From Tetraselmis striata (Eukaryota; Chlorophyta; Chlorodendrophyceae; Chlorodendrales; Chlorodendraceae), in contig VCJN01001453.1 of the NCBI GenBank assembly GCA_006384855.1, forward strand, positions 62,001 to 126,000: 64,000 nucleotides of DNA. The letters are read 5' to 3'. A program made the translations under genes and the position numbers. Within the stretch, counting starts at the first letter, position 1. Every line of letters starts with the position of its first letter. The notes beneath the pieces are model-generated. The model was not told where the DNA came from. It worked only from the letters and a program-made list of their open reading frames with translations, and did no database searches. Positions 6,314-51,206 of the stretch are shown one piece after another.

Positions 6314-6457
6314 CTGCATTCAATAATCATTTCGTAAATAATAGTATCACTGATAAGATGAATAGATCCCATGATTTTAAATCTACACAAAATAGAATGC
6401 ATGTATGCGTGTGCGGCAATTTCACTTGGTGGTACACCACAACGGGAAAAGCGCAAC

Positions 6458-6527
6458 ATTATAGCGTAAACGGTAGAGGCCACTATACTTCACTTTTGAC
6501 TCACTGAAAACGGGACAATTCACTAGC
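6458..6527 (+). repeat. Left terminal inverted repeat of the 11.8-kb element
   Basis: Inverted partner of 18211-18280. It differs at four positions, and similarity stops after CACTAGCT. Confidence 0.85.
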
Positions 6528-7055
6528 TCACGCGCCAAACAATGTACTACAGACATACATGTACAGCGCAAAGTACTGTACTCGCCGTCGCCGCCGCCAT
6601 CCCTTATCCCGCCCACTCGAGTGGAGGGGGGGCTGCGCAGTACTACTAGTCGCTACTAGTATACCTTTCCACCACCGCCAAGGCTGCCCAGAACCCAAAC
6701 CGGGCCGTGGCAGACAGTTAGCGACTATTCATAGGAAAGGATCCCACGCGACACAGGCATGCAGGGTCTTAACTTACACAAAAAGGCGCGAACGCCCGGA
6801 TCCGTGGCATGTATGGACTCCGCCTACCTTTGGCGTAGGTCTGCACGGCTGGTGAGTAGGCAGCTATAGAGACTTGCAGCTCACGCTATCGGTTACTGCC
6901 ATGCAGGCTGGGGTAGGTCCCATCGCGATGGAGGTGCCTAGCAACCCCCCCCCCCCCCCCCCCCCCCGCTTCCCCCCCGCACGCGGCCACCCTCTCGAGA
7001 GTCCGCCAGCCGGTCCGCCCGACGCGCTTGACCAAGGGCTGCGTCTGCTCGACGT
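6528..7055. other. Left internal flank of the TIR element
   Basis: No recognised gene. It contains two inverted TAGTCGCTA motifs (6647 and 6719) and a C tract at 6950-6967. An ATGGAG followed by GTGCCT near 6930 could be a short first exon and donor of the plus-strand repeat gene, but this is speculative. Confidence 0.35.
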
Positions 7056-7079
7056 GCCCCCACCCAACGCTCTCGTCGC

Positions 7080-7367
7080 GTGGTGGCCCTTGCCGTTGGA
7101 CCTAGCCGGGCCGATACGCGGTCAGTGGCGGGTCAGGGGCAGGGCCCGCCAGCGGCAGACATGTCGCCGAGCTTGGCTGTCGCTGGCGATGCGGGCGAGG
7201 GCTGGCCTACGCATAGCGATAGCCAGGCTGGGGAGAGCGGCGGGCAGGGAGCCGGCGCGTCGGCAGCCACACCCTGTCGACTTGCGCTCGCATTAGGCGG
7301 GGGTGGGGGCGTGCCGGATGCCAGCGGCTCGGAGGCTGGTAAAGGCGCGACAACCACCATGCTCACG
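7080..7367 (+). CDS. Exon-like segment R, copy 1, of the repeat-exon gene
   Basis: An open plus-strand segment rich in Gly, Ala, Ser and Pro (for example GQGQGPPAADMSPSLA and ALALGGGGGVPDASGSE). It ends at ACG followed by a good donor, GTAAGAG (7368). A second copy at 9597-9888 keeps almost the same protein and ends at the same point with GTAAGAG. Both copies end in phase 0, which matches the phase of the 96-bp exons that follow. A coding exon feeding a series of repeat exons fits this best. The 5' boundary is not clear. Copy 2 has a TAA where copy 1 has TCA, so copy 2 at least is damaged or spliced differently. No family is recognised. Confidence 0.4.
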
Positions 7368-7499
7368 GTAAGAGCTGTGGAATAGGCGGGATGGAGGGCG
7401 GGGGGCGGGGGGCGGGGGGGGGGGGGGGCGGGAGGGGGGGGGGGGGGGGGGGGGGGGGGGAGGTTGTGGCCGTGCTGTGATGTAATGCTGTGGTAGTGT

Positions 7500-9560
7500 G
7501 GTGCACCTTTGCATTTTTATACGGCTTGCTAATTATGTCGCCATTACACGTTCGACTGACAGCCCCCGACTCCAAAAACTAGCACGAGCAACGCACTCCC
7601 TGCCCCCGCTGCCGACGAGTTGCAGCCGGCCTCAAAAGAAGCAACGCCAGTCGCCAAGGTGGGCGGCCTTGCTGCGATGTAATGTTGCTGTCCTGGGCTT
7701 CTGTTGTTTTCGGCTTGCTAATTATGTCGCCATCGCGCGTTCGACCCACAGCCCCCGATTGCAAAGCACGAGCGACGCACCCCCTTGCCTTGCTGCCGAC
7801 GAGTCGCAGCCGGCCTCAAATGAAGCGACGCCAGTCGCCACGGTGGGCGGCCTTGCTTCGATGTAAGGCTATGCTAGGCTGTTTTAGTTTTCGACTGGCT
7901 AATTATGTCGCCATCGCACGTTCCACCCACAGCCCCCGAGTGCAAAACGTGGCACAAGCGACGCACCCCCTTCGCCTTGCTGCCGACGAGTCGCCGCCGG
8001 CTCGCATGCGCCACCAGTCGCAAGGGTGGGCGGCTTTGCTGCGATGTAAGGTTAAGCTAGGCTTTTGCAGTTTCCGGCTTGCTAATTATTATGCCGCCAT
8101 CGCACGTTCCACCGATAGCCCCCGAGTCCCAAACCTTGCACGAGCGACGCATCCCCTCGCTCGCCCGATGCTGACGAGTCGCAGCCGGCTTCAACCGAGG
8201 CGACGCACGTCGCCAAGGCGGGCGGCCTTGCTGCGACATAATGATGTTATCCACCTTTGCATTTTTATGGCTTGCTAAATATGTCGCCATCGCGCGTTCG
8301 ACCCCCCCCCCCCCCCCCCCCCCGACTGCTAGCTGCACGAGCGACGCACCCCCTCACCTTGATGTCGGCGAGTCGCAACCGGCCTCAAAAGAAGCGACGC
8401 CAGTCGCAAGGTGGGCCGCCTTGCTGCGATGTAAGGCTATGTTGGGTTTTTTTAGTTTCCGACTTGCTGATTATGTACACGCCATCGCACATTCGACCCA
8501 TACCTCCCGACTGCAAAATCTGACACGAGCGACGCACCCGCTGCCCCCGCTGCAAAAGGCCCGAACGACCCTCACAGTTTGCTCACAGTTGCGGCAATCC
8601 TTTGGTGACGCATGTGCAGGCCGGGAGAAGCAAAAAGGGGGAAAAGGCAAGGACAAACGCGGGCAGGGTGGTGCTGGCTCCAAGCGCGGCCGTGAGGAGC
8701 GATCCCGCCGCCGATTATTGCCACTCCCGTCACTTCCTCTTCACCCACCTCCCCCGGAGCACCGCACAAGTCCGTCCCATCCGCTGCAGTCAAGCCGCCG
8801 CGGTCCTGGTCCATCGTTCCCCAGGACGTGAGGAAGAGGGCGGAGCGCACGATCGCCAGCTCTACTATGGGGTGGGCACCGCTGAAGTGGTGCCGGGCGC
8901 AGCGGAGCCTGAGACCCTGGTGATGTATGCAAAAGTGCCCGCCATAGATAAAGGTGGCTGCACTGCCGGCACCTTCTGGACTCGTCGCAGTCGCAGGAAA
9001 CCCCATTGTCGCCCGCAGAAACGCACTTCAGTCGACAACAAACTCTGTGGACGGCTTGCAAGAAGCGACAAGGTTGGGGCAGCAATCCTCGCCTACTGTT
9101 GGTATACGCGACAATGCGCGCCTGGGTGACCTGGTACTCGGAGTGGCAGTCGTGTTGTATGGCAGTCGTGTTGACGCACCCCCTCGCGTGCCTGCTGCCG
9201 AGCCGCAGCCGGCCTCGACAAGGGCGACGCGAGTCGTCAAGGTGGGTTGGCCCCGTTGCACGTGTTGCCATTGCGCACCTATTACTTTTACGGCTCGCTA
9301 ATAGAGTCGAAATCGCACGTTGGTCCCGCATACCCCGAGCGCAGAGGCTTGCCCGAGCGACGCACCCCCTCGAAGCGCTGCTCCCGAGTCGCAGCCGGCC
9401 TCGACATGGCGCCTCATGTCGCCAAGGTGGGTTGGACCCGCTGCACCTTTGTTGCCGTTGCGCACTTGTTACTTTTACGGCATGCTAATTGAGTCGCCAT
9501 CGCACGTTGGCCCCCGCAGACCCCAAGCGCAAAAGCTGGCCCGAGCGACGAACCCCCTCG
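7500..9560 (+). repeat. Tandem exon/intron array 1 (~190-bp units)
   Basis: About nine units of 180-190 bp. Each has an intron-like half (GTGGGCGG donor, a GCTAAT branch-like motif, then CCCACAG) and an exon-like half from CCCCCGA to CGCCAAG. Intact exon halves are 96 bp (32 codons) and read PPxxKAGTSDAPP then ADESQPAS in phase 0; the unit near 8115 has 33 codons. Units near 7740 and 7930 carry frame-breaking small deletions. The part after 8530 is diverged: 8560-9100 shows no clear unit, then three weaker copies follow at about 9170-9560. A C tract of about 23 nt lies at 8302-8323. Coding status is inferred from phase and splice motifs, not proven. Confidence 0.6.
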
Positions 9561-9596
9561 CGGCGCTGCTCCTAACCCGCATGCCAAACGCTCTCG

Positions 9597-9888
9597 TCGC
9601 GTGGCGGCCCTGGCCATTGGACCTAGTTGGGCCGATACGCCGTAAGTGGCGGGTCAGGGGCAGGGCCCGCCAGCAGCAGACATGTCGCCGAGTTTGGCGG
9701 CTGCCGCTGGCGATGCCGCCGAGGGCTTGCCTACGCCTAGCGATAGCCACGCGGGGGAGAGCGGCGGGCAGGGAGCCGGCGCGTCGGCAACCACACTCTC
9801 TGGACTGGCGCTAGCATTAGGCGGTGGTGAGGGCGTGCCGGATGCCAGCGGCTCGGAGGCTAAAGGCGCGACAACCACCATGCCCATT
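9597..9888 (+). pseudogene. Exon-like segment R, copy 2
   Basis: A duplicate of 7080-7367 with about 90% similar protein (GQGQGPPAADMSPSLA retained), ending at ATT followed by GTAAGAG (9889). An in-frame TAA replaces a serine codon near 9641. The last array-1 exon runs straight into this copy, so the two fused exon types sit in one frame. The PAT-like element is inserted 11 nt after the donor. Confidence 0.4.
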
Positions 9889-9899
9889 GTAAGAGATGC

Positions 9900-9927
9900 T
9901 TAGACAGAGTGCGAGTCACGTTGCCAG
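9900..9927 (-). repeat. B2 split direct repeat of the PAT-like element
   Basis: Identical over 28 bp to 10239-10266 (contains GACAGAGTGCGAGTCACG). It marks the 3' end of the element. Confidence 0.9.
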
Positions 9928-9987
9928 AAGCGAGTGTCTTGTCTTACAAGCCCCTCGCCACACCAAACAAGATGGGTGGGACGGGTG

Positions 9988-10238
9988 GGTGCGTGAAGCG
10001 CAACAGCAAAAGGGATGAGCGCTATGGTCTAGACAGGTGGCTAAGTAGTAGCTGCAGGCAGGCAGGGAAACAGGTCGGGAGCTGGTGCGGTCGCGAGTCC
10101 GCTGCTCACTGTCCCATCCTGGAAGATTCTAGACAGAGCCGATGACTGGCTACTGTGCTATATTTTCCAGGTGGTAGTCGTTCGACCGCACAACTCGGTC
10201 CGTCGTCTGACTAAACTCAGTTAAGTACTTAACAACGA
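9988..10238 (-). repeat. A2 split direct repeat of the PAT-like element
   Basis: 251 bp, matching A1 at 14562-14812 with at least one substitution (GGTGGC versus GTTGGC near the outer end). Confidence 0.93.
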
Positions 10239-10266
10239 TTAGACAGAGTGCGAGTCACGTTGCCAG
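10239..10266 (-). repeat. B1 split direct repeat of the PAT-like element
   Basis: Lies directly next to A2 and is identical to B2. The B1-A2-B2 order is diagnostic of PAT-type termini. Confidence 0.9.
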
Positions 10267-10303
10267 GCAAAACCGGAAGGCCACAGTTACCGGTGAAAAC
10301 CAG

Positions 10304-13300
10304 TCACTGTGAAAGATTAGCAGCGGAACGCTGCGGTGCCAGGGAGCCGAAGAAGTAGCGGGCCCCAGCGGAGTCCAGGATGCCTGGCACGATGTAATTG
10401 AGGACCACGCCGCTGCCCACTTTCCAGCCGCCAAGCCAGCGAATCGTAGGCATAGGGACGCCCGTGGCCGAGGCCGCGGACGCCCCGCCACTGCGAAGGC
10501 TGTGCGACGACCAGCAGAAACCAGCAGGCGGGGTAGCGTCAACTGCCAAGGCAGCGGCAGTTACCCATTCGGAGACAGTAGCCGCGGTCCACGTGCCGGG
10601 ATCATCATCAGGGAGCTGCCAAAACCGAGTAGAACCGGGCAGCACGTGATCGCGGCAGCTGACGAAGAACTCCAAAAGCTCCGCGATTTCGGGGTGCGCC
10701 TCGCGGGAAATTTGCAGCACCGGACGAGGCGCCCCGGAAGGCTTGCCCTTAAGTACTCGACGGTACAGCGTAATGCTGCGGGAATCAACCGCCAAATCGC
10801 GCACGCCGCACCCCGTACTGGTACCCGCGCGGTGACAAAAAAGGAAATTGACCGCGGTAACGAGCAGGGCACGGAATGTGGGCAGGTCGCACGCGATGGA
10901 CCTGTGAGAAACCAGCCGCTGCGCACGCCGAACACAGGCGAGGGCGACGTCCGCAGGCAGAGGCACCCGGTAGTCCGGGGCGTCCAGCACCTGCTGGGCC
11001 AGCTCCCAACCGCGCATCGCCTGGTTGACGAAAGGCCCAAGCGCCGGCGGCTCCTTGAAATTATCGGTGAAAAAGGCGTTGATCGCTGAAAGGTAGGGTC
11101 CAAAGGCACCAGTCTTGTTGCGGCCACGTGCCGCAACCCAAGAGATGTACCGAACGATGAGCGGCGGATCCGCCGTGTCCGGCAGTCTCCCATTTTGCGC
11201 GCAGAACTCGCAGAATAGGTTGAATTCAGATCCGTAAGACTGCACGGTACGTTCCGCGCGCGAAGACATCAAGAAATCCGCGGCACGGCGCCCAACCTCG
11301 TCGTCGCCGAGTAACCGCAGTAGCCCAGGTCGCATAATCGCTGCCCATGGTGCAGACGGTACGTTCGATTTCAACCCGTACCGCACAGCCGGGTGTTGCC
11401 TGCTGTGAGCATCTGTACGGGAGATCTGAAAAGCGTCCGCGGAAACGTCCAAGGTAGCAGCCGCAACACTTAACGCCCCGTAACCGGCGCGTCGCGACCG
11501 GTAGAAGAAGGACGGAAGGGAAGGCGGAAGAGCATACATCACGCTCCAGGGCGGCGGCCCGACGCCCGCGCGGCGCCCGAGCAGCCCGGGAAAGAACAGA
11601 TCGCGGGAAGGAGGGTAGTGCAGTACCTCTGTAGCCATCTCGTGTAGCTGCTGGAGCCAAGGGCGGCCGTGCCAGGCCGGGGCGACCACGGTCGCCGCGG
11701 CCCCCGATTGCTGCAGCTTTAGCACCAGATCGTCCAGCAGCTGCCAGGGGGGATTGCACCAGTTCACTTCGGCGCGCCACGTGGCGTCCGACTGGGCCAA
11801 GGAGTCCACCGCCTCGGTACCTGGGACCGTCCACCGGGAGTTGTACCGAGGTAACAAGGCGTTCTCCATAGTTGCGAATCGGTCGACCGTATGAGGTCCC
11901 CAGATGCGATCGACGTACCGGAATATACGAGGATTGATCATCCAATCGGAAAAGTCCTTCTCTCGCGAAAGCTTGTCCGCCCATGCGTTCGCCGCAGATC
12001 GAATGTACCGTACTCGTAAACGAATATCGTGTACATCCAGCAAATAACATAGCTTGCGAAGTTCCGCCATAAGCACCGGTGACCGAGTAGTCAAATTGGA
12101 CAGGATATGCACCACCGCCTGATTGTCCTCGTACAAAAGTACGCGGCGCCCCATCAGCCGTGGCAAAAATGACTGTATGGCGAGACGTACCGCTTTGAGC
12201 TCCTTGTACGTTATATGACGTCGACGATCCTCCTCGTGCCAATATCCGCGTGCCTCCGTAGTTTCGCACAGTACCGCACCCCAGCCGTACTGGCTGGAGT
12301 CCGTGTGCAGATAGGCTGTCTCCACCGGGAGCAGAATCGGTGCGCCGTTGTGGCGCGTGGGAACATCGCGCCACCACTCCAAATCGCGAATGAGCTGACG
12401 CGTCAGAACGACCTTGCCGCTCGGAGAGGAGCATCGGCCCAGGACGGTGTGCGCCTCGCGGAGGTAGAAACGTGCCGGAGGCATCGCGAGGTAGAGGAAC
12501 TGGCCCTGCCCGGCGAGAGACGCAAGGAGTTTGGCCGGCGCGTGGCGGCGGCGGCGCGCAGCGATGCACAGGAGGTCGCGGGCCAGGTTGGAGAGCCGAC
12601 GCAGTTTCGCCGTTGGGGCGCGGAACTGCATAGTGACCAGGTCCAAGTCCATGCCTAAGTGCTGCAGCTGCTGGGTGGGCTCGGGGTGCGCCTTGGTGGG
12701 GTGCTTGGCCAGGCCCAGGCGCCCCTAGAGTCGCTCGACCTCGGCCCGTAGGCGTAGAGCCAGCTGGCGCGACGGTGCCAGAAACAGGAAGTCGTCGATG
12801 AACGGTAGGAGGCAAACGCCGCGCGCCTTGCGGCGACGCAAGCGTCGACGGAAGGGCCGGCCGTAGCTGCTGTAGGTCGCGAAGTCTGGTTGACGCAGGT
12901 AGCGCACCATGACCGCCATCAGAGTGCAGAAGTAGTAAGGGCTTAGCGACCAACCCATGGGGAGGGCCGCGAAGCGCCACAGGGTGCCACGTACGTTGAT
13001 TGTAAAGAAGTCGCGGACGTCCTCCCGCAAGCCCAGGGCGTAGTAGCCGTCCTGCATGTCGAAGGAAAACGCCCAGTCGCCGCGTTTCGCCAGGTACCGC
13101 AGGCGACGCAGAGTTTCGAATCGCATGGAATAGACCGCGCAGTAAGAGTTTAGATGGCGCAGGTCTGTTACAAGGCGCCACTGGTTGCAGCCCGGCTTTG
13201 GTACTAGGAAGACTCGCGACACGTAGTGCTCGCGCACGCCAGGTTCTAGCGCGCCGACTGTTACTAGTCGCTGGCTCTCCCGCTCCCACCACTCGAGCTG

Positions 13301-13759
13301 CTGAGGCGTAGCGTCCTGTAGAGAGACGCCCCGGTGGAAAGGCGTGGGCGCCGCGCCAGAGAAAGGTAGCGGCACTCCCTCGCGAACCCACCGGAGCACG
13401 CGCCCGCTCGCCCCGATTCGCCGCCACTCCCGCCAGTTCTGCCGCACGCGATGGCGCAGAAACGTGGAGGGGCGTGGTAACGAAGCGGAACGGCGGGCCG
13501 CACCGTCAGGCCTTGCCCTTGCCCTTGCCCTTGTCGGCGTCGTCGGCTGTGGGGCGGAAGTCTGGGCGTGGGCGGCGTCCGGAGGGCCGGCGCCGTCGCG
13601 CTCTGGATGGTGGCTCGTCGTCGTTGTCCTCCTCCTCGTTGGGGTCTGGTCCCACGCCGAAGCGCTGTTGTACGGCTGCCTTTGCCGCCGCCGTGACGCT
13701 TTACTCGGCCTCGCGGCGCAAAAGCTCGTCGCTGAGCTGCGCCACTGCTTCCGAACCAT
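10304..13759 (-). pseudogene. Reverse transcriptase - RNase H - tyrosine recombinase polyprotein (one internal TAG)
   Basis: This polyprotein copies the element RNA and integrates the product. RT motifs in order: SFDMQDGYY (motif A), LPMGWSLSP (motif B) and LPFIDDFLFL (motif C, the xIDD form). RNase H shows LHTDSSQYGWG, TYKELKAV, YEDNQAV and AANAWADKLS, giving the D-E-D-D set. A middle segment has NWCNPPW, reminiscent of the methyltransferase-like region of some DIRS-group ORFs. The C-terminal tyrosine recombinase shows an early Arg (CHRAGTS), HSLRSGG for H-x-x-R and the Tyr in VVLNYIVP. A single TAG at 12727-12725, between the catalytic palm and the thumb, is the only break; CAG (Gln) would fit there. 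The frame overlaps the gag C-terminus in another frame and is open upstream to 14167, so translation by frameshift or reinitiation is likely; the ATG at 13759 is a guess. It ends with TGA. Confidence 0.9.
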
Positions 13760-14474
13760 AGTCCGCGAAACCGGGCTAGAGGAGGCTGCGGCGAACCACC
13801 TGTGCGACTGTCTTGGTCCGCGCATCCGCATCGTTCGACGCGTTGAGGCGGATAAACGCCAGGAAGTCGCGCCGGTGTTTATTTGAGGCGTCGTAGGCCG
13901 CCACGCCCGCTTCAAGGAGGCGAAGGTCCTCCTCACCAGGGGGCTGCGCCGCGCTTGCCGCTCTCTTAATCGACGCGAGCGCCTCGCAGAGAGCCGCGTG
14001 GGCCACCGCATCGTAGAAGCCAAAGCAGTACAGAGAGCGGTATTGATCCAAAGTGGCCCAGTGCCGACGTGCGATGAGCTGGCGGTGCGTCTCGTCAGAT
14101 GAGATGTCGTACAGTTGGGGAATCGGAGAGAGGCCGGGACTGGGCTGGACGGAAAAGCCGGGGCCAATTAAATGAGCCCACTCCTCCCAGACTAAGGAAG
14201 GGGCAGCGGCACTAGGGCCACCGCGCTGGGGCTGGGGCACGGAAACCTGCTCTGCGCGAGCCGGTGCGTCGTGCTGGGAGCTCGCCGCGGCAGCGCTACT
14301 AGCGGGCGCGCGGGGCTCGGTAGGAGTAGAACCACTAGGCCGCTGAAGGTCACTTCGTAGGGCTTCCAGAAGCTCCGTAAGCCCCGCGAAACCGGCCTCC
14401 AGCGCGGCGATGCGGTCTTCGGCTAGGCCACTAGGGGCGTCACCGGAGTTGCCAGGCATACTGAGCCCTGACAA
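13506..14474 (-). pseudogene. Gag-like ORF of the PAT-like element (two internal stops)
   Basis: From the ATG at 14474 the frame gives an N-terminal helical segment, a Pro/Ala/Ser linker and a globular region (LYDISSDETHRQLIARRHW, RRDFLAFIRLNASND). TAG at 13778-13776 and TAA at 13703-13701 interrupt it. The same frame then continues with AAAKAAVQQRFGVGPDPNEE, an acidic patch (EEEDNDDE) and a basic, Lys/Gly-ending tail to TGA at 13508-13506. The continuity of composition across both stops shows that this is one protein of 322 residues plus two stops. Both stops are one C-to-T change from Gln codons. Gag would package element RNA. No zinc knuckle is seen, as is usual in DIRS-group Gag. Confidence 0.75.
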
Positions 14475-14561
14475 TGCCGTGCGCAGGGCGTCGTGCTAGC
14501 GCAGGCGGATAATATCGACAAGGATCGCTTCCCCTCGCGGCACAGGTGCCGCGCGATTGTT

Positions 14562-14812
14562 GGTGCGTGAAGCGCAACAGCAAAAGGGATGAGCGCTATG
14601 GTCTAGACAGTTGGCTAAGTAGTAGCTGCAGGCAGGCAGGGAAACAGGTCGGGAGCTGGTGCGGTCGCGAGTCCGCTGCTCACTGTCCCATCCTGGAAGA
14701 TTCTAGACAGAGCCGATGACTGGCTACTGTGCTATATTTTCCAGGTGGTAGTCGTTCGACCGCACAACTCGGTCCGTCGTCTGACTAAACTCAGTTAAGT
14801 ACTTAACAACGA
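14562..14812 (-). repeat. A1 split direct repeat of the PAT-like element
   Basis: 5' terminal repeat in the sense orientation and partner of 9988-10238. It ends at AACAACGA, where the flanking array DNA begins. Confidence 0.93.
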
Positions 14813-14867
14813 GAAAAAGGCGGGATGGAGGGCAGGGTGGAGAGGGGGGGGGGGGGGGGGTTGGCCG

Positions 14868-17450
14868 TGCTGCGATATAATGTTGTGGTGCACTTTGTAT
14901 TTTTATACGGCTTGCTAATTATGTCGCCATTACACGTTCGACTGACAGCCCCCGACTCCAAAAACTAGCACAAGCAACGCACTCCCTGCCCCCGCTGCCG
15001 ACGAGTTGCAGCCGGCCTTAATAGAAGCAACGCACGTCGCCAAGGTGGGCGGCCGTGCTGCGATGTAAGGTTATCCTGGGCTTCTGTTGTTTTCGGCTTG
15101 CTAATTATGTCGCCATCGCACGTTCGACCCAACAGCCCCCAATTGCAAAAGCTGGCACGAGCGACGCACCGCCTTGCCTTGCTGCCGACGAGTCGCAGCC
15201 GGCCTCAAATGAAGCGACGCCAGTCGCCAAGGTGGACGGCCTTGCTGTCATGTAAGGCTATGGGTTATGGGCTTATGTATTTTCCGGCTTGCTAATTATT
15301 ATGCCGCCATCGCACGTTCCACCCACAGCCCCCGAGCGACGCACCCCCTCGCCTTGCTGCCGACGAGTCGCAGCCGGCTCGCAAGAGGCGCCGGGAGTCG
15401 CCAAGGTGGGTGACCTTACTGCGATGCTGTAAGGCTATGCTAGGTTGTTTTAGTTAGTTTCCGACTTGCTAATTATGTCGCCATCGCACGTTCGTCCGAC
15501 AGCCCCCGAGTGCAAAAGCTGGCACGAGGGACGCACCCCCTCGCCTTGCTACCGACGAGTCGCAGCCGGCTTGCAAGAGGCGCCGCGAGTCGCCAAGGTG
15601 GGCGGCCTTTCTGCGAGGTAAGGCTATATGCTGGGCTGTTTCAGTTTTCGGCTTGCTAATTATAATGTCGCCATCGCACATTCGACCCACAGCCCCGAGT
15701 GCAAAAGCTGGCACAAGCGACGCATCTCCTCGCCCCCGCCAACGAGTCGCAGCCGCCCTCAAAAGAAGCGACGCACGTCGCCAAGGTGGTCGGCCTTGCT
15801 GCGACATAATGTTGTTGTCCACCTTTGCATTTTTATGGCTTGCTAATTATGTCGCCATCGCACGTTCGACCCAACAGCCCCCGAGCGACGCACCCCCTTT
15901 CCTTGCTGCCGACGAGTCGCAGCCGGCCTCAAATGAAGCGACGCCAGTCGCAAGGTGGACGGCCTTGCTGTGATGTGAGGCTATGGGATATAGGCTCCTG
16001 TAGTTTCCGGCTTGCTAATTTTGTCGCCATCGCACGTTCCACCCACAGCCCCCGAGCGACGCACCCCCTCGCCTTGCTGCCGACGAGTCGCAGCCGGCTC
16101 GCAAGAGGCGCCGGGAGTCGCCAAGGTGGGTGACCTTACTGCGATGCTGTAAGGCTATGCTAGGTTGTTTTAGTTAGTTTCCGACTTGCTAATTATGTCG
16201 CCATCGCACGTTCGTCCGACAGCCCCCGAGTGCAAAAGCTGGCACGAGGGACGCACCCCCTCGCCTTGCTACCGACGAGTCGCAGCCGGCTTGCAAGAGG
16301 CGCCGCGAGTCGCCAAGGTAGGCGGCCTTTCTGCGAGGTAAGGCTATATGCTGGGCTGTTTCAGTTTTCGGCTTGCTAATTATAATGTCGCCATCGCACA
16401 TTCGACCCACAGCCCCCGAGTGCAAAAGCTGGCACAAGCGACGCATCTCCTCGCCCGCCGCCAATGAGTCGCAGCCGCCCTCAAAAGAAGCGACGCACGT
16501 CGCCAAGGTGGTCGGCCTTGCTGCGACATAATGTTGTTGTCCACCTTTGCATTTTTATGGCTTGCTAATTATGTCGCCATCGCACGTTCGACCCAACAGC
16601 CCCCGAGCGACGCACCCCCTTTCCTTGCTGCCGACGAGTCGCAGCCGGCCTCAAATGAAGCGACGCCAGTCGCAAGGTGGACGGCCTTGCTGTGATGTGA
16701 GGCTATGGGATATAGGCTCCTGTAGTTTCCGGCTTGCTAATTTTGTCGCCATCGCACGTTCCACCCACAGCCCCCGAGCGACGCACCCCCTCGCCTTGTT
16801 GCCGACGAGTCGCAGCCGGCTCGCAAGAGGCGCCGGGAGTCGCCAAGGTGGGTGACCTTACTGCGATGCTGTAAGGCTATGCTAGGTTGTTTTAGTTAGT
16901 TTCCGACTTGCTAATTATGTCGCCATCGCACGTTCGTCCGACAGCCCCCGAGTGCAAAAGCTGGCACGAGGGACGCACCCCCTCGCCTTGCTACCGACGA
17001 GTCGCAGCCGGCTTGCAAGAGGCGCCGCGAGTCGCCAAGGTGGGCGGCCTTTCTGCGAGGTAAGGCTATATGCTGGGCTGTTTCAGTTTTCGGCTTGCTA
17101 ATTATAATGTCGCCATCGCACATTCGACCCACAGCCCCCGAGTGCAAAAGCTGGCACAAGCGACGCATCTCCTCGCCCGCCGCCAATGAGTCGCAGCCGC
17201 CCTCAAAAGAAGCGACGCACGTCGCCAAGGTGGTCGGCCTTGCTGCGACATAATGTTGTTGTCCACCTTTGCATTTTTATGGCTTGCTAATTATGTCGCC
17301 ATCGCGCGTTCAACCTACCCACATCCCCCCGACTGCTAGTTGCACGAGCGACGTACCCCCTCGCCTTGCTGCCGCATAGTCGCAACCGGCCTCAAAAGAA
17401 GCGACGCCAGTCGCAAGGTGGGCGGCCTTGCTGCAATGTATCCGTTGGTT
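14868..17450 (+). repeat. Tandem exon/intron array 2 with a ~722-bp higher-order repeat
   Basis: About fourteen units of the same 180-190-bp exon/intron type as array 1. The unit near 15140-15235 keeps a perfect 32-codon exon (PPIAKAGTSDAPP, then AADESQPASNEATPVAK) between CCAACAG and GTGGAC. Some exons lack 18 bp (TGCAAAAGCTGGCACGAG), an in-frame loss; others lack 1 bp at CGC(C)AAG. From about 15290 the array is built of three near-identical blocks of four units, spaced 720-722 bp (for example 15469, 16189 and 16911), which indicates recent amplification by unequal exchange. It follows a G tract at 14846-14860. Confidence 0.65.
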
Positions 17451-17459
17451 CAACCGCAG

Positions 17460-17582
17460 GTGACTGCTATCTGCACGCGGAAATTGTTTGAGGAGGGGCA
17501 GCATACCTTCGTAGCCGCCGAGGCATACAAGAACCGCCAATTAGTAGAGAGGCCTGAGATTACCGACTTGACCGCTTTGTAG
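17460..17582 (+). CDS. Possible terminal exon of the repeat-exon gene
   Basis: After the last array unit, TTCAACCGCAG provides an acceptor at 17459. The following 41 codons read VTAICTRKLFEEGQHTFVAA and end ITDLTAL then TAG. The charged, balanced composition differs from the Pro/Ala-rich repeats and looks like real coding DNA. The opposite strand also has an open frame (17854-17450), so the direction is not certain. If correct, this exon closes the gene inside the TIR element. No family is recognised. Confidence 0.35.
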   Translation: MTAICTRKLFEEGQHTFVAAEAYKNRQLVERPEITDLTAL

Positions 17583-17589
17583 TCGGCAT

Positions 17590-18210
17590 ATTCAGTGTGG
17601 TCGTCTTCGGCAGGAAGCCAGTGACCGATATGGTGTGGTTGTACCTCAGCCCCAGCAGGGGTGGGCCGTGTGGCCCATGCAACTGCCGTGTTGGAACGCT
17701 TAGCGCTGCCTTGCATACCGGGGCTGCCTGCGGCACCCTCTTCATACGCCACTTCTTCGGCCAAAGACGCAGGGGGGCGCTGGCCACCCCCCCTTAACGA
17801 CTCTTCCAAGGTCGCAACATCACGCAAGGCTGCCCCACGCGAGGAGACGGGCATACCCGACGGCAGACCCGATACAACTTGTTGCCATCTCGAGAACTTC
17901 CCTACTCAACATTCCCTCATGATCTTGAATGAGTTCCCGCACCTCCCCAAGTGCAGCGCGGAGTTCGTGTATAGCCCGCAAGGGGGAACCCATACTGACC
18001 CCGCAGCCCTACTTCCTACTTGTTTCAGCGAGAAATGGTAGACAGGTGTGGGAGGCGGAGAACTGCCTCGACTTCGCGGCAACCTACCTACCTACCTACC
18101 TTCGGAAAACCTGCCTCGACCCGCCGCCTCTGCCTCGTTCCGCCGCCACCAAGTGATCATGTACTTTGTGCCAGTACACGCGAACCCTAATAACCTGCAC
18201 AGGGTTTAAA
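17590..18210. other. Right internal flank of the TIR element
   Basis: Open frames exist on both strands (17661-18041 plus; 17854-17450 minus) but neither has recognisable motifs. A minus-strand frame near 17950-17880 is helical (RELIQDHEGMLSREVLEMA). A short CTAC tandem run lies at about 18084-18100. No firm call is possible. Confidence 0.35.
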
Positions 18211-18280
18211 GCTAGTAAATTGTCCCATTTTCAGTGAGCCATAAGTGAAGTATAGTGGCCTCTACCGTTTACGCTATAAT
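18211..18280 (-). repeat. Right terminal inverted repeat of the 11.8-kb element
   Basis: Inverted partner of 6458-6527. Outside it the Harbinger transposase N-terminal half begins. Confidence 0.85.
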
Positions 18281-18299
18281 CTTGTCCCATTCCCCACCA

Positions 18300-18925
18300 C
18301 AACCCAAGGGACCTTCCGATTATTATAATTTTGTGGGTTTTATACATCCAGTAGGCTAGGCTGCGCTATGGGCAGCACAATGCCATCAATAGCAGACACC
18401 GCATTAGCAAGTGTGCCTCCGCTATTTTCAAAAAGCCTTTTGCCAGCTCGGCCATACCATTCGCCATGTCAAAGAGAACAGCTTTCTCAAACACCTTGTT
18501 TATGACCGCTTGCACATCTCGAATCGCATTGTGGAAGGTGAGGTTGTATGGGGATGCCGTGCATATCCTCCATGCCAAGAAGATGACCGCCGGCCAAGAA
18601 ACGCCGACACCTAGAGCTCCGCCGACAGAATATAACCGCTGCTCCGCTCGGCTTGCTTGATGTCCTCCGCATCCACAAATGGGCGGATCGCGTATGCAAC
18701 CGTCGCAAAGCGAGCCTTCGACAACTTGCACCTAAGGCAAATTGCTTCTAGGTCAGTGAGTCGCGTCGCTCGTCCCATTCCCCAGGGGACAAACTCCTCG
18801 CAAAGTACATGCATACTCACGTTCGCCGTTCGACGGCGCGACTTGCACACCAACCAAAACGAGATCGACGCCGCAAAGGCTGCGCGGCGGCGGAAGCGGG
18901 CTGCATTAGTAGGCTGGGAGACCAT
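18300..18925 (-). pseudogene. PIF/Harbinger transposase, N-terminal part (copy 1)
   Basis: The minus-strand reading has the helical region that precedes the catalytic domain (AIRDVQAVINKVFEKAVLF, then MAELAKGFLKI). After a frame change it gives TLANAVSAIDGIVLPIAQPS, the first catalytic Asp block (AIDG), and then NYNNRK, the usual Y-x-N-R-K turn. A TAA lies just before NYNNRK. The protein stops at the TIR boundary near 18280 and resumes on the same strand at 6313. Upstream minus-strand frames (18925-18611) contain KLSKARFATVAYAIRPFVDA and may be its N-terminal exon. Multiple frame changes mark it as dead. Confidence 0.65.
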
Positions 18926-31485: not shown

Positions 31486-34285
31486 ATTCGTGCGTTTCGT
31501 TTGTCGGCGGAACGGCGTGCGAAGCTGCGGCTGGCGAAGGTGGTGGAAGTAAGCGTGGCGGCGTAGGCGGCGTATTACCGTGCGTGCATGCGTGCGCAAC
31601 CCTGCGGCAGCAAGCGCCGGACTCGGCGTGTGCCGGCGGCAGAGCTGCGAAGCCATGGACACGGTACGGGATGCCAAGTCTGGGTAAGCAACTGCCGAGG
31701 CTGGCGGCTTAACCCCCATGTCCGGCGGTTGAGGGACGGAAAGTGCGTAGAAGTTGATCGGCAAAGCGGGCATATAAGCCTGGCTGTGTTAGGTTCCTAT
31801 TAAGTAATGGCGGTTTGTGCTAAGTAATTCGTAGGGGTGGACCATGCAGCGCAGGTAGGGGGCGGTATAAATGAGGCCGGGCACATATACTGCTCCACGA
31901 AACGACACTGTCGCACGTGTAGTTGAATAGACCCCCCCCCCCCCCCCCCCCCCCCCCACCCCCCGCCGGGTCGGCCCGCCGACCCGCCACGGCATGTAAT
32001 ATCTGTCATGCATCGCAGGGGTATGTGTGAGTGGATGCCCCGCCGCCACCCCCCCCCCCCCCCCCCATTTACACTTGTGCACTCATTAAGTTTGGGCTGG
32101 TTTCGGAGCAGTACATGTACGTATGTATATACATACAATGGAACGTAGGACCTGCGCGGAAAGAGGCGGGGCTGGCGGAGTGCGTTGGGGGTGCGTAGAG
32201 TAGCGTGTTGGTGAGATTCGGGGTGCATCGGACGCCGGATGCCCATCCACCCAGCGTAAAAGACGCGTGCGTAATATTCACACTATATATATTCACACGC
32301 AAATGTGTGAAAACCGGACATTCCGTGCCGGATGGGTGGGAATACGGCGTCCGATGCAGCCAAAACCCCAGCAACACGCTATTCTATGCACCGCCAATGC
32401 ACTCCGCCAGCACCGCCTCATTCTCTGTCGATTTCGAAAACGCCTTCACATTATCCACCGCTAATTGCAATTGCCACCGTGTAATGTTGTCACGATGTGC
32501 GCACACAACACCACTTACTACCGTTTCCGACGCGGATGGAGGCGGGGCTTGCGGAGTGCACTGGCGGTGCACAGACTAGCGTGCTGCAAATAATTGGGGT
32601 GCATCGGACGCCGGATGCCCATCCACCCGGCGTAAAAGACGCGTGCGTAATATTCACACTAAATTAACACACAAATGTGTGAAAACCGGACATTCCGTGC
32701 CGGATGGGTGGGAATACGGCGTCCGATGCAGCCAAAACCCCAGCAACACGCTATTCCATGCACCGCCAATGCACTCCGCAACCCCCGCCTCATTCTCTGT
32801 CGATTTCGAAAACGCCTTCACATTATCCACCGCTAATTGCAATTGCCACCGTGTAATGTTGTCACGATGTGCGCACACAACACCACTTACTACCGTTTCC
32901 GACGCGGATGGAGGCGGGGCTTGCGGAGTGCACTGGCGGTGCACAGACTAGCGTGCTGCAAATAATTGGGGTGCATCGGACGCCGGATGCCCATCCACCC
33001 GGCGTAAAAGACGCGTGCGTAATATTCACACTAAATTAACACACAAATGTATGAAAACCGGACATTCCGTGCCGGATGGGTGGGAATACGGCGTCCGATG
33101 CAGCCAAAACCCCAGCAACACGCTATTCTATGCACCGCCAATGCACTCCGCAACCCCCGCCTCATTCTCTGTCGATTTCGAAAACGCCTTCACATTATCC
33201 ACCGCTAATTGCAATTGCCACCGTGTAATGTTGTCACGATGTGCGCACACAACACCACTTACTACCGGTTCCGACGCGGATGGAGGCGGGGCTTGCGGAG
33301 TGCACTGGCGGTGCGTAGAGTAGCGTGCTGTAAATACTTGGGGTGCATCGGACGCCGGATGCCCATCCACCCGGCGTAAAAGACGCGTGCGTAATATTCA
33401 CACTAAATTAACACACAAATGTGTGAAAACCGGACATTCCGTGCCGGATGGGTGGGAATACGGCGTCCGATGCAGCCAAAACCCCAGCAACACGCTATTC
33501 TATGCACCGCCAATGCACTCCGCAACCCCCGCCTCATTCTCTGTCGATTTCGAAAACGCCTTCACATTATCCACCGCTAATTGCAATTGCCACCGTGTAA
33601 TGTTGTCACGATGTGCGCACACAACACCACTTACTACCGGTTCCGACGCGGATGGAGGCGGGGCTTGCGGAGTGCACTGGCGGTGCGTAGAGTAGCGTGC
33701 TGTAAATAATTGGGGTGCATCGGACGCCGGATGCCCATCCACCCGGCGTAAAAGACGCGTGCGTAATATTCACACTATATTAACACACAAATGTGTGAAA
33801 CCGGACATTCCGTGCCGGATGGATGGGAATACGGCGTCCGATGCAGCCAAAACCCCAGCAACACGCTATTCTATGCACCGCCAATGCACTCCGCAACCCC
33901 CGCCTCATTCTCTGTCGATTTCGAAAACGCCTTCACATTATCCACCGCTAATTGCAATTGCCACCGTGTAATGTTGTCACGATGTGCGCACACTACAACA
34001 CTTACTACCGGTTCCGACGCGGATGGAGGCGGGGCTTGCGGAGTGCATTGGCGGTGCGTAGAGTAGCGTGCTGTAAATACTTGGGGTGCATCGGACGCCG
34101 GATGCCCATCCACCCGGCGTAAAAGACGCGTGCGTAATATTCACACTATATTATTAACACACAAATGTGTGAAAACCGGACATTCCGTGCCGGATGGATG
34201 GGAATACGGCGTCTGATGCAGCCAAAACCCCACGCTATTATATGCACCGCCAATGCACTCCATCCGCAACCCCCGCCTCATTCCC
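31335..34285 (+). repeat. Left arm of the foldback-like element
   Basis: Outer single-copy part (31335-32204) with G and C tracts at 31441-31485, 31931-31957 and 32050-32066, then tandem 372-bp units from 32205. Confidence 0.85.
32205..34285 (+). repeat. Tandem array of palindromic 372-bp units (left arm)
   Basis: Units start near 32205, 32577, 32949, 33321, 33693 and 34064 (last one partial). Within each unit CGTCCGATGCA recurs inverted as TGCATCGGACGCC, and the block GCACCGCCAATGCACTCCGC recurs inverted about 200 bp later. Each unit is therefore an imperfect palindrome around an AT-richer core (GATTTCGAAAACGCCTTCAC). The about 100-codon open frames in every unit are by-products of this repeat. 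Confidence 0.88.
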
Positions 34286-36240: not shown

Positions 36241-38211
36241 TCTAGTCTCCCGCTAGTCTGTGCACCGCCAGTGCACTCCGCAAGCCTCGCCTCCATCCGC
36301 GTCGGAACCGGTAGTAAGTGTTGTGTGCGCACATCGTGACAACATTACACGGTGGCAATTGCAATTATTAGCGGTGGATAATGTGAAGGCGTTTTCGAAA
36401 TCGACAAAGAATGAGGCGGTGCTGGCGGAGTGCATTGGCGGTGCATAGAATAGCGTGTCCCTGGGGTTTTGGCTGCATCGGACGCCGTATTCCCACCCAT
36501 CCGGCACGGAATGTCCGGTTTTTACACATTTGTGTGTTAATAAAGTGTGAATATTACGCGTCTTTTACGCCGGGTGGATGGGCATCCGGCGTCCGATGCA
36601 CCCCAATTATTTGCAGCACGCTACTCTACGCACCCCCAACGCACTCCGCAAGCCTCGCCTCCATCCGCGTCGGAACCGGTAGTAAGTGTTGTTGTGTGCG
36701 CACATCGTGACAACATTACACGGTGGCAATTGCAATTAGCGGTGGATAATGTGAAGGCGTTTTCGAAATCGACAGAGAATGAGGCGGTGCTGGCGGAGTG
36801 CATTGGCGGTGCATAGAATAGCGTGGTGCTGGGGTTTTGGCTGCATCGGACACCGTATTCCCACCCATCCGGCACGGAATGTCCGGTTTTCACACATTTG
36901 TGTGTTAATAAAGTGTGAATATTACGCGTCTTTTACGCCGGGTGGATGGGCATCCGGCGTCCGATGCACCCCAATTATTTGCAGCACGCTACTCTACGCA
37001 CCCCCAACGCACTCCGCAAGCCTCGCCTCCATCCGCGTCGGAACCGGTAGTAAGTGTTGTTGTGTGCGCACATCGTGACAACATTACACGGTGGCAATTG
37101 CAATTAGCGGTGGATAATGTGAAGGCGTTTTCGAAATCGACAGAGAATGAGGCGGTGCTGGCGGAGTGCATTGGCGGTGCATGGAATAGCGTGGTGCTGG
37201 GGTTTTGGCTGCATCGGACGCCGTATTCCCACCCATCCGGCACGGTATGTCCGGTTTTCACACATTTGCGTGTGAATATATATAGTGTGAATATTACGTA
37301 CGCGTCTTTTACGCTGGGTGGATGGGCATCCGGCGTCCGATGCACCCCGAATCTCACCAACACGCTACTCTACGCACCCCCAACGCACTCCGCCAGCCCC
37401 GCCTCTTTCCGCGCAGGTCCTACGTTCCATTGTATGTATATACATACGTACATGTACTGCTCCGAAACCAGCCCAAACTTAATGAGTGCACAAGTGTAAA
37501 TGGGGGGGGGGGGGGGGGTGGGGGGGGGGGGGTGTGGCGGCGGGGCATCCACTCACACATACCCCGGCGATGCATGACAGATATTACATGCCGTGGCGGG
37601 TCGGCGGGCCGACCCGGCGGGGGGGGGGGGGGGGGGGGGGGCGTCTATTCAACTACACGTGCGACAGTGTCGTTTCGTGGAGCAGTATATGTGCCCGGCC
37701 TCATTTATACCGCCCCCTACCTGCGCTGCATGGTCCACCCCTACGAATTACTTAGCACAAACCGCCATTACTTAATAGGAACCTAGCACAGCCAGGCTTA
37801 TATGCCCGCTTTGCCGATCAACTTCTACGCACTTTCCGTCCCTTAACCGCCGGACATGGGGGTTAAGCCGCCAGCCTCGGCAGTTGCTTAGCCAGACTTG
37901 GCATCCCGTACCGTGTCCATGGCTTCGCAGCTCTGCCGCCGGCACACGCCGAGTCCGGCGCTTGCTGCCGCGGGGTTGCGCACGCATGCACGCACGGTAA
38001 TACGCCGCCGACGCCGCCACGCTTATTTCCACCACCTTCGCCAGCCGCAGCTTCGCACGCCTTTCCGCCGACATACGAAACGCACGAATCCCCCCCCCCC
38101 CCCCCCCGTCCCCGCGTCATGTATATTATATTCGAGGCGACTATGCGGGGCGCAGCACACGCCGCGGCTTGGGTCGGCGGAGCGGCAGGCGGCGGGAGCC
38201 CTAATGGCCGG
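36240..38211 (-). repeat. Right arm of the foldback-like element
   Basis: Inverted copy of the left arm. It carries about three 365-370-bp units (36245-37350) and then the outer part with its own G/C tracts of different lengths. The arm ends at CCTAATGGCCGGGCA (38211). Confidence 0.85.
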
Positions 38212-39955: not shown

Positions 39956-40364
39956 CTTGGCGCCGCGCTGCCCCGGCCGCCGCGCCTTGGCGCCGCGCTG
40001 CCCCGGCCGCCGCGCCTTGGCGCCGCGCTGCCCCGGCCGCCGCGCCTTGGCGCCGCGCTGCCCCGGCCGCCGCGCCTTGGCGCCGCGCTGCCCCGGCCGC
40101 CGCGCCTTGGCGCCGCGCTGCCCCGCCCATCCCACTCGCGTTGGCGCCGCGCTGCCCCGGCCGCCGCGCCTTGGCGCCGCGCTGCCCCGGCCGCCGCGCC
40201 TTGGCGCCGCGCTGCCCGGCCGCCGCGCCTTGGCGCCGCGCTGCCCCGGCCGCCGCGCCTTGGCGCCGCGCTGCCCCGGCCGCCGCGCCTTGGCGCCGCG
40301 CTGCCCCGGCCGCCGCGCCTTGGCGCCGCGCTGCCCCGGCCGCCGCGCCTTGGCGCCGCGCTGG
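39956..40364. repeat. 30-bp GC-rich minisatellite, ~13.5 copies
   Basis: Unit TTGGCGCCGCGCTGCCCCGG plus CCGCCGCGCC, almost perfectly conserved, interrupted once (40123-40141) by CCCATCCCACTCGCG. It produces open frames in several phases on both strands (AAPAAAPWRR, GAARRQGAAA) that are not evidence of genes. It lies just 3' of the last recognisable block of the minus-strand transposase-like gene. Confidence 0.95.
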
Positions 40365-47561: not shown

Positions 47562-50500
47562 ATGACAGGTATCCGTGGCGCCACTTTAGTGGTGATCGCC
47601 CTCCTTGTTGCCGCCAGTGCCTCGCGCGTCGAGGCCGGTCGCAGTCTACAAGCCACGACACTCGATGCGGTGCTGTCCGGCGAGGCCGTCGGCGCCGCCG
47701 CCGAATATGAGCGACGCGCCGGTTTCGACCTCGAGCGCTCCTCCCTCACATTTCAGGCGCCGGGCCACGCGCCCTGCATCGCCACCACGAGCGTAGAGCG
47801 CTTCCCTGTAGACCCTCGTGGCGGTCAGGCGCTGGCCTTTGAGTCTACCTACTACTCTGAGGAGATGCGCTTCACCGGCGGCTTCACCTTCCCGTGGATG
47901 GGCGTCCGCTACGCCAACGCCTTCGTCAGCCGGCAAGGCTTCATCACCTTCGACACGACCGGCCACCACGCCCGGACGGGAACCCTGGAGCGGCACTGGC
48001 AGGACGCACGCGTGTCTGTGCTGTTTGCCGAACTCCGGATGACCGCGGCCTCTATCATCAGCTGGCGCCAGCTGGACACCGCGGTGGTGGTCACCTGGCA
48101 GAACGTGGGCGAGTCCGACTTCCAGGCGGTGCTACACGCCGATGGCGCCATCACCTTTACCTATCTTCGCGTCGGTTTCGACGGCCACAAGGTCCCCCCC
48201 CCCCCCCCCCCACCCCCTGCCTATTCTCTCCCTCTGCCGGCCACTCCCTGGAAGATCATTTTCACACCACGGTTAGCTGGAAAAATCCGACCGTCTATGT
48301 CGAGCTGGCGGAGCTGCCTTTGACGGCCTCTGTGGTGCAGGTTGTCGGCCTGTCCACTGGGGAGGAAGGGACGCTGGTAGACCTCTCGGCCTCAAATGCC
48401 TGCAGCCCCTTAATGGAGCAGGTCGGTGCACCGGGCGCAATCCGTGGATACGGCCGTGTGTTCGAGTCCGGCTACGATTTGGAGCACACGGAGCTGGTGT
48501 TCGCCGGACCTGAGTACCAGCCCTGCGTGACGCGGGATGTTAAGCAGTTCCCGGTGGACCCGCTGGGTGGGGAGGCGATCCTCTTCCAGCACTCCTGGGA
48601 CTCTGCGGCTGAGGTTCGCTTCGAGGACGGGTTCCGCTTTCCGTTCGGCGGCGTGAACTACACAACCGCCTACATCAACTACAACGGTATGCTGCTAGTC
48701 GACCTGCCTGATAGATATACAGATACAGATGATGACATACTGATCGGCCTTATTTTGAGCCACCTGCCGAGCTGAAAATAAATATGTATATAGTGCCGCA
48801 CTTCCTGCCCGCCACCTTTCGCCTCTAACCACTGGCTCGTGAACACGGCAGGCTTTGTCACCTTCGACGAGCCCGACACTGAGGTGGCTCCCTCTCTGAG
48901 ATCACACTTCATGCGTACGCGCGTGTCCGTGCTCTACGGCTCCTACAACCTGGACCTCGCCGACTCGCTCGTGTCCTGGCAGCAGCGAGCGGACCGCGTG
49001 GCGATCACCTTCCAGGCCGTAGGCGGCTCCGACTTCCAGTTGTCGCTGCACGCCGATGGGCGCATCAGCATGACATATCTCGATGTTCAGGATCCGCGGA
49101 ACGAGATGGTGGTCGGCGTGTCCACTGGCGCTGTCGGCTCGGGGTCGAGCGACGTGGTGCCATGCGGAGCTGGCCAGGCGCCCGTGGCGGGCGCGGCATC
49201 TCGTAGCGTGCCCGGTGTGTCTCAGGCATTCGCCGACGGCTTCGACCTCGAGGGCTCTGTGGTGATGTTCTCGGGGCCGGACTACACACCCTGCATCGCG
49301 TACGGGGTGGCCGACTTCCCGGTCGACCCCGCGGGCGGCAGCGTTCTTCCGTTCAGGCACAGCTGGGACACGGTCATGGAGGTCCGCTTCACCGGCGGCT
49401 TCAGGTTTCCCTTCGGCGGCGCCTTCTACACCTCCGCGTACGTGAACTATAAGGGTTTCCTAACCTTCGACGACCCGGACGAAGGCGACTTCCCCAGCCT
49501 GCGCGACCACTTCCTACGCCCGCGCATCTCCGTCCTGTACAGCAACCTCCAGCTCAGTAACGAAGAGACGATTATCAGCTGGAAGCAGGCCGATGACCAC
49601 GTTACCTTTACCTTTGTCGGGATGTCGGAGTCCGACTTCCAGTTGACGCTGTACGCCGACGGCAGCGTGTCGATGTACTACCTTAAGGTCGCCGACTCGT
49701 CCGCTGTCAAGATTGTGGGCATCTCTACCGGCGTGACCGGCCGCGTCACGCAGCACCTGTCGACGGTGTCTGCCAACATGAAGGACGGCGCGGGGTCGCT
49801 TTGTCACGAGTCTCTGTCGGCGGCGCTTAGCTCAACGGCGGAGGCTGCGGCCCCCGCTGGCTCTGCAGAGATCTACCTCAGCGGCTTTGACATGGAGCAC
49901 ACCGAGCTGAGCTTTGCGGCGCCCGACTATACGCAGCCCTGCGCCTCCTGGGACGTGCAGGCCTTCCCGGTCGACCCACGTGGCGGCACTGTCATGCCCT
50001 TCCAGCACAGTTGGACCGAATTCCAGCACATCCGCTTTGCCCGCGGCTTCCGCTTCCCCTTTGCCGGCCGCATGTACAGCTCCGCGTACATCAACCGCAA
50101 GGGCTTCATCACCTTCGACTCCGAAGACACCGACTACAGCCCCAGCCTGCGCTCCCACTTTGTGAGCGCGCGCATCTCTGCGCTGTACAGCAACCTGCAG
50201 ATTGAGATTGACTCCGTCGTCAGCTGGAAGCAGGTCGGCACAGAGCGCGTTGCCATCACCTTCCAGAGCGTCTCGGGCTCCAACTTCCAGGTCAACCTGC
50301 TGGCGGACGGCAGCGTGACCATGACCTATCTGACTGTCACCATCGGGCGCGATGTGGCCGTGGTGGGCGTGTCGTTGGGCAGCGCCGGCAAGGTGCTGGA
50401 CATGTCGGAAGCCGCCACCTGCCCTGCCGCCGCGGCGCCGCTCACATCCGACGCCGTGCCGATGACAGGCATGGCACAGGTCTTCGAGGGCGACGCCTTT

Positions 50501-51206
50501 AACCTGGAGCACACCACGCTAACGCTGTCCCGCGTCAACGGCGAGCTGGTGGCCTGCACCAGCGTGGACATCGACGGCCTGCCGGTGGACCCCGCGGGCG
50601 GCAGCCCCATTGTGCTGGACCCCTACGACGACGCGCCCAGCCAGGTCAACTTCCGCGACGGCTTCAAGTTCCCCTTCATGGGCCGCATGCACTCCTCCGT
50701 CTTCGTCAGCCGCAAGGGCTTCATCGCCTTCAGCCCGGAGGACACCGAGACCTTCCCCTCGCTGCGCTCCCACTTCGCCCACCCGCGCGTCTCCGCGCTC
50801 TACACCGACCTCCGCCCCAGCCGCGCGGAGCTGGAGACAGCCATCAGCTGGAAGCAGCTGTCGCGCAGCGCGGCGGTGACGTGGGGCGGTGTGGGCGGCA
50901 ACGAGTTCCAGGCGCTGCTGCACGAGGACGGCACCATCCAGCTGAGCTACCTCACCGTTGGCGCCACCAGCGCGGCCGTGGTTGGCGTGTCCCAGGGCGC
51001 ACTGGGCGGCGTGGCCGACCTGTCTGGCGCCCCCTCCTGCGAGTACCGCTCACGCTCCATTGAGCTGGCGTGCCCGGCCGGGGAGATGGACCACCAGTGC
51101 CGTGACGGCCGACGGGCTGGAGATGCGCTGCAGCGACGGCAGCTCCCTGATCTGCCAGCTGGACGGCGGCGCTGCGTCATGCACCGTGCGCAGCAAGCAT
51201 GTCTGA
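47562..51206 (+). CDS. Secreted protein with five TEM7/plexin-domain-like repeats
   Basis: MTGIRGATLVVIALLVAASA is a clear signal peptide. Exons 47562-48191, 48341-48686 and 48852 onward splice in phase (0, then 1). Five repeats of about 190 residues follow. Each has FPVDPxGG, then RFxxGFRFPFxG, an SAY(V/I)N-x-x-GF(I/V)TFD strand, SLRxHF, RxSxLY, ISWKQ, SDFQxxLxxDG and a VVGVSxG end. The pattern F-PFxG / GFI / W / FQ-L-DG-I matches the beta-sandwich of TEM7 (PLXDC) and nidogen-like domains, suggesting an extracellular or wall protein. Ligand and role are unknown. Near 51090 the frame of the repeats runs on to 51574, but a shifted frame reads LEMRCSDGSSLICQLDGG and ends in TGA at 51206, followed by TGTAA at about 51441. 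A small intron or a single-base error is likely there. Exon 1 is followed directly by an 18-C tract after GT. Confidence 0.8.

Follow-up and report, generated by a model that had tools for sequence, protein, structure and literature searches.

Part of the genome of the chlorophyte alga Tetraselmis striata holds a tandem repeat in which each unit of about 190 bp resembles one exon followed by one intron, and the question is whether such an array is a gene. The stretch of DNA analysed here, termed the window, comprises 64,000 nucleotides (contig VCJN01001453.1 of GenBank assembly GCA_006384855.1, positions 62,001 to 126,000 of the forward strand), and the repeats lie between its positions 7,500 and 17,450. 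A first-pass annotation, made from the letters alone, proposed that the units encode a long repeat protein rich in proline, alanine and serine, or a decayed form of one. The comparisons below point to a different origin. The array is very probably an internal minisatellite of a non-autonomous Mutator-like element (MULE) that has expanded along with the element, and its exon-and-intron appearance would derive from one ancestral unit whose multiplied copies have been drifting ever since, with no detectable selection on the reading frame.

The interval 6444–18294 is best read as one insertion of a non-autonomous MULE. Inverted repeats of about 85 bp lie at 6444–6528 and 18210–18294, with 89% identity over 85 nt and 93% over 75 bp, and the same 9 bp, caccacaac, directly abut both ends as a target-site duplication, a length within the 8–11 bp that mark MULEs. 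The genome (224 Mb in 2903 contigs) has 63 matches to light-harvesting proteins, as befits a photosynthetic eukaryote. In a search of it, the left end was found at at least 40 places and the right end at at least 40, with 97–100% identity, and the matches in these other places begin or stop at, or a few bases from, the 6444 and 18294 borders. Where both ends of an insertion were in hand and could be read by eye, identical direct duplications of 8–9 bp flanked 21 of 25; three had imperfect or displaced duplications (L012, L015, L021) and one had none (L035). Two pairs of copies that share a site, L012/L023 and L028/L037, are probably alleles. A 30-mer from the terminal inverted repeat (TIR) occurs at 394 genome sites when up to three mismatches are allowed, and the reversed pattern, used as a control, occurs at none. 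Together, the inverted repeats, the target duplications and the many copies identify the element as a transposon. It is called non-autonomous because no Pfam transposase was found in the four of its frames that were scanned. The parts of the insertion are as follows.

6435..6443, no strand: left target-site duplication (caccacaac, 9 bp)
6444..6528, plus strand: left TIR (GGGAAAAGCGCAACATTATA...), where the ends of other copies coincide
6529..7062, plus strand: left unique segment with a poly-C tract; no evident codon-position bias in 27 aligned copies
7063..7377, plus strand: DR1, a direct repeat 89% identical to DR1' at 9584-9898, with a 207-nt ATG frame at 7161-7367 and then GTAAGAG
7528..8547, plus strand: array 1, five full units (7528-8465) and a partial one (to about 8547)
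8548..9172, plus strand: middle segment, of which 8933-9152 is 92% identical to part of the transposase-bearing element L049 and antisense to an open frame there
9173..9572, plus strand: array 2, about two diverged units, from tandem-repeat and profile matches
9584..9898, plus strand: DR1', the second DR1 copy by direct-repeat comparison, with a 207-nt ATG frame at 9682-9888 and then GTAAGAG
9900..14814, minus strand: tyrosine-recombinase retrotransposon of the PAT/DIRS group, from domain matches and split direct repeats
14863..17440, plus strand: array 3, with 14 units longer than 140 bp in the window copy and a four-unit higher-order repeat of about 720 bp, from tandem-repeat and profile matches
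17441..18209, plus strand: right unique segment, from aligned copies
18210..18294, minus strand: right TIR (...TTGTCCCATTCCC), from inverted-repeat comparison and copy ends
18295..18303, no strand: right target-site duplication (caccacaac, 9 bp)

Relatives with the same ends carry a transposase. The 220-bp match to window 8933–9152 led to L049 on contig C770, and L052, which continues L049 on that contig, contains a minus-strand open stretch that matches the MULE transposase domain PF10551 (E 1.9e-5) with 25.4 bits, slightly under the cut-off of 27.6 bits. Five genome relatives of the L052 protein, at 62–64% identity, exceed this cut-off. Of the 394 TIR sites, 100 were listed, and twelve contigs combine one of these with a transposase match of at least 88% identity. 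In nine of them the transposase match lies 1.35–1.36 kb from a TIR site (C407, C572, C598, C705, C770, C860, C922, C964 and C1018); in the other three (C273, C308 and C423) the TIR site is on the far side, with no near site among those listed. The L049 part also shows, by eye, a CxC...CxH pattern, which presumably resembles a SWIM finger; Pfam gave no match there, and a PDB sequence search with the transposase-like stretch of L052 found nothing. An early suspicion of a non-MULE superfamily had come from the observation, made by eye, that no contig held both a PF10551 place and one of the first 100 TIR sites listed, and it was dropped once the fetched element matched PF10551 just under the cut-off. 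Given the shared ends and the piece of the L049 region kept in its middle segment, the window element is best placed in this MULE family as a non-autonomous member, which the transposase of the related elements may mobilize. On C770 itself, three equal-scoring transposase matches stand about 8.5 kb apart and represent either tandem transposase-bearing MULE copies or an assembly effect.

The array lies in pieces because another transposon has inserted into it. By its sequence features, 9900–14814 is a PAT-like tyrosine-recombinase retrotransposon inserted into the window copy. On the minus strand it has RVT_1 and RT_RNaseH matches over the Pfam cut-offs, as well as Dam and integrase N-terminal SAM-like matches under them, and its split direct repeats pair 14559–14812 with 9985–10238 (254 bp, 99%) and 10239–10266 with 9900–9927 (28 bp, 100%). 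No target duplication was seen around the insert. The 38 other near-full matches to window 9000–10000, among those listed, all end at 9899; L029 passes from the equivalent of 9899 to that of 14815 with two bases between, and the sequence at the insert site is uninterrupted in five copies examined. In the excerpted description of PAT-like retrotransposons in PMC3266345, the shared features are the split direct repeats and the reverse transcriptase, RNase H, methyltransferase-like and integrase-like matches; the insert is assigned by features rather than by phylogeny, with two of its domain matches under Pfam cut-offs. The same excerpt reports PAT-like families from the chlorophytes Chlamydomonas and Volvox, among others. 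Where the first-pass annotation had drawn 7500–17450 as one array, units do occupy three stretches of this interval, but 9900–14814 is an unrelated retrotransposon; both the multi-copy transposon around the array and the second transposon that interrupts it had been missed.

The repeat units themselves are largely as first described. They stand in tandem, measure about 172–193 bp, and occupy 7528–8465 (with a partial unit to about 8547), 9173–9572 and 14863–17440, and the early estimate of about 23 units agrees with 23 profile matches in the window copy. The unit consensus contains the described arrangement of acceptor, open segment and donor: a segment of 96 nt whose phase 0 is open (PPSAKAGTSDAPPRLAADESQPASKEATPVAK), CCCACAG before it, and AAG followed by GTGGGC across the donor border. 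A profile built from the units of the window matched 724 times at 41 loci, and 587 of these matches cover both borders of the exon-like segment. A branch-like CTRAY motif occurs 15–48 nt upstream of the segment in 463 of the 587, mostly at 31 or 34 nt, which bears out the branch-like motif noted earlier, and the segment said to feed the array is the 207-nt ATG frame at 7161–7367, before GTAAGAG. The claim that every unit looks like an exon plus an intron went too far. The window copy has 20 scorable units; 16 carry both AG and GT, and in five of these the length is a whole number of codons. Over the 587 units, AG is present in 476, GT in 549 and both in 442. Segment length leaves a remainder of 0 in 241 units, 1 in 69 and 2 in 277 when divided by three, the commonest lengths being 95 nt (143 units), 96 nt (133) and 77 nt (73); the out-of-frame 95- and 77-nt forms recur across many copies. 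Both splice dinucleotides, an in-frame length and an open phase 0 come together in 193 of the 587. Phase 0 is open in 496 units and phase 1 in 507, and since phase 1 is as open as phase 0, openness is a property of GC-rich composition, under which long open runs are expected. A loose exon-like rule is satisfied by 826 of 2000 dinucleotide shuffles of the consensus.

The size of the array varies between copies. Array 3 holds from 2 to 19 units in the 25 copies that have both flanks, two pairs of which are probably alleles. Unequal exchange or slippage among its near-identical units may lengthen and shorten it, and each resulting state would then be spread by transposition.

Separately, at L026 (contig C142) and also on contig C293, the left portion of the element, up to about window 7910, recurs about every 4.9 kb with other sequence. 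No right end was found within the 9.5 kb read at L026, which is possibly a transposon-derived macrosatellite.

Tests for coding returned few traces of selection. The five non-array segments have no evident codon-position bias in raw counts over 27–37 aligned copies; changes at positions 1, 2 and 3 number 15, 19 and 24 in the DR1' ATG frame and 16, 23 and 20 in the DR1 ATG frame. Among 24 unit types, pairwise differences at the three codon positions are 0.194, 0.161 and 0.225 (permutation P=0.13), and the ratio of nonsynonymous to synonymous differences per site (pN/pS) is 0.93 over 10 in-frame unit types, so purifying selection on unit codons was not found by either measure. The acceptor AG is conserved less than the median unit column, with 113 (A) and 136 (G) of 186 columns at least as conserved, and 78 of the 186 are at least as conserved as the G and T of the donor. 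Of 64 chains made of a DR1 frame and the predicted exons that follow it, 62 run into a stop codon or a missing splice site, and in 26 of these the break falls at unit 2; this unit is 91 nt long, and therefore out of frame, in 26 of 29 array-1 chains. The two unbroken chains hold four units and no units. As for indels, which the first-pass annotation had proposed to compare between the two halves of the unit, the exon half has 46 distinct events, of which 17 are multiples of three, and the intron half has 40, of which 8 are; the difference is gone when events are weighted by unit (122 of 437 against 100 of 353, i.e., equal). Outside the arrays, a plus-strand frame of 201 amino acids in the middle segment was rejected as a protein: it has no Pfam match, its substitutions are spread across codon positions, and part of it is antisense to a frame of the transposase-bearing element. 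A Glyoxalase match in the right segment (E 0.011, under the cut-off) was taken as chance. Rfam at gathering thresholds gave no match anywhere in the window.

Could some copies nevertheless be transcribed and spliced today into a long Pro/Ala/Ser repeat protein? The chains in L019 and L033, which stay open through 13 predicted exons, would favor such a live repeat-exon gene, but both break at unit 14 and are thus among the 62 that fail. Moreover, 346 of the 587 unit lengths are out of frame, the near-equal openness of phases 0 and 1 means that composition alone predicts long open chains, and the raw counts across copies are without evident codon-position bias. With the broken chains, the out-of-frame units, the pN/pS of 0.93 and the unconserved acceptor AG, this explanation was rejected as extremely improbable, and present-day coding by the array is not supported by the sequences compared. 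The part of the original proposal that spoke of a long protein made today is not supported, on the same grounds, while its alternative of a decayed form keeps a modest probability through the 96-nt units of an older relative, L053.

According to this second explanation, an ancestral element carried a spliced gene with DR1 as its first exon and a body of 96-nt phase-0 exons, and the window family is its dead, amplified descendant. Several observations lean this way and count against the minisatellite reading. On contig C798, L053 combines a DR1 frame of 204 nt with three consecutive phase-0 units, every one exactly 96 nt long, preceded by ACAG and followed by GTGGGC or GTGGGT, although the third contains a stop and DR1 is followed by a disrupted GTAAGAG donor. 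In L051 (contig C586), two units are open and 96 nt long, but neither is preceded by AG, and the third unit is 97 nt. Across three lineages, the first two units downstream of DR1', or of the repeat that corresponds to it, measure 96 nt throughout and align free of gaps, with 2–4 gaps per pair in the introns. Substitutions between L053 and L009, a member of the window family, number 50 of 473 in exon-like and 57 of 302 in intron-like sequence; a significant difference in rate between the halves is seen in one lineage pair of three (P=0.04, 0.13 and 0.58). Yet unit exons 1 and 2 have pN/pS of 0.96 and 1.30 between the old and window lineages. For DR1, pN/pS is 0.37 against the DR1' of L009 (P=0.03), but the other two comparisons, 0.73 and 0.82, are not significant (P=0.58 and 0.77). 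DR1 is stop-free in 139 of 150 cases among the matches listed, where six loci share the DR1 score of L053 and contigs C909, C1531, C2403, C2425 and C2670 score the same as C798, but the copies found with the element ends are 97–100% alike, and open DR1 frames are therefore expected without selection. The exon-like half is also less variable than the intron tail over 24 unit types (P=0.007); of the substitution check first suggested, this much held, and a significant codon-position bias did not appear. Only 13 of 2000 dinucleotide shuffles satisfy a strict exon-like rule (branch, YAG, MAGGTR and frame), which was framed after the finding was seen. Finally, domain comparison by eye places an intron at about 48687–48851 in a multi-domain gene of the window, with the branch A of CTAAC 24 nt before the next exon, and the host seems to use branch-type motifs like those of the units. 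With the unit pN/pS near or above one and the acceptor columns not conserved, a decayed cargo gene is judged unlikely. Its fuller form, in which each exon-intron unit of a MULE cargo gene of DR1 and equal 96-nt phase-0 exons was also the unit of satellite amplification, so that protein length changed by whole exons before the window family decayed and expanded, must be held at least as unlikely.

The preferred reading, an internal minisatellite of a non-autonomous MULE, leaves room for several sources of the founding unit. It was perhaps a piece of a spliced gene beside DR1, either captured or ancestral, or it may owe its form to chance. This unit would have been multiplied and its copies would then have drifted, their reading frame showing no detectable selection, and the PAT-like retrotransposon would have split the window copy between DR1' and array 3 at a later time. 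No host parent gene was picked out among the DR1 and unit protein matches listed, whose places were not compared with the element ends.

Known transposons offer partial parallels, drawn here from excerpts of the papers cited. In Tetris / TIR-220 of Drosophila virilis, the repeats lie inside the TIRs (foldback), whereas those of the window element are internal and form three arrays; the excerpted account finds no transposase source for Tetris, whereas a transposase-bearing relative with the same ends exists here (PMC4079207). SWIM-bearing Mutator-like groups, as tabulated in PMC6446971, are alike in being TIR elements with a 9-bp duplication and in the MULE transposase, which occurs here in a related element, the window element itself having none; this is a likeness of features rather than of placement in a MULE tree. 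Among the MULE groups in the table are algal ones (Rhodophyta) that have SWIM fingers, and one of these bears the remark “Various inserts, potentially host derived”. Its row for Rehavkus gives a 9-bp duplication and notes a minisatellite, as here, but places the minisatellite “in Cterm” and adds a PHD finger (PMC6446971). A literature search on tandem exon duplication as a transposon minisatellite found no paper, and no wider absence is claimed.

The window holds other repeats as well. A satellite of 368–372 bp forms two arrays, 32155–34283 and 36251–37413, in opposite orientation by eye, and the insertion site of the MULE copy L016 seems to lie within this satellite sequence. A 30-bp tandem repeat of 13.5 units at 39956–40363 is open on both strands. 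The multi-domain gene mentioned above, at 47562–51574 on the plus strand, has repeated domains, a weak NIDO match under the cut-off, and introns seen by domain comparison.

The exon-like satellite would thus be explained as cargo of a transposon family whose ends are still 97–100% alike, and the family shows clearly how a minisatellite can change size within a DNA transposon. It also carries a warning for gene predictors, as such arrays may give spurious repeat-exon genes at many places. If the older subfamily were truly a gene, it would represent the growth of a protein exon by exon through satellite dynamics.

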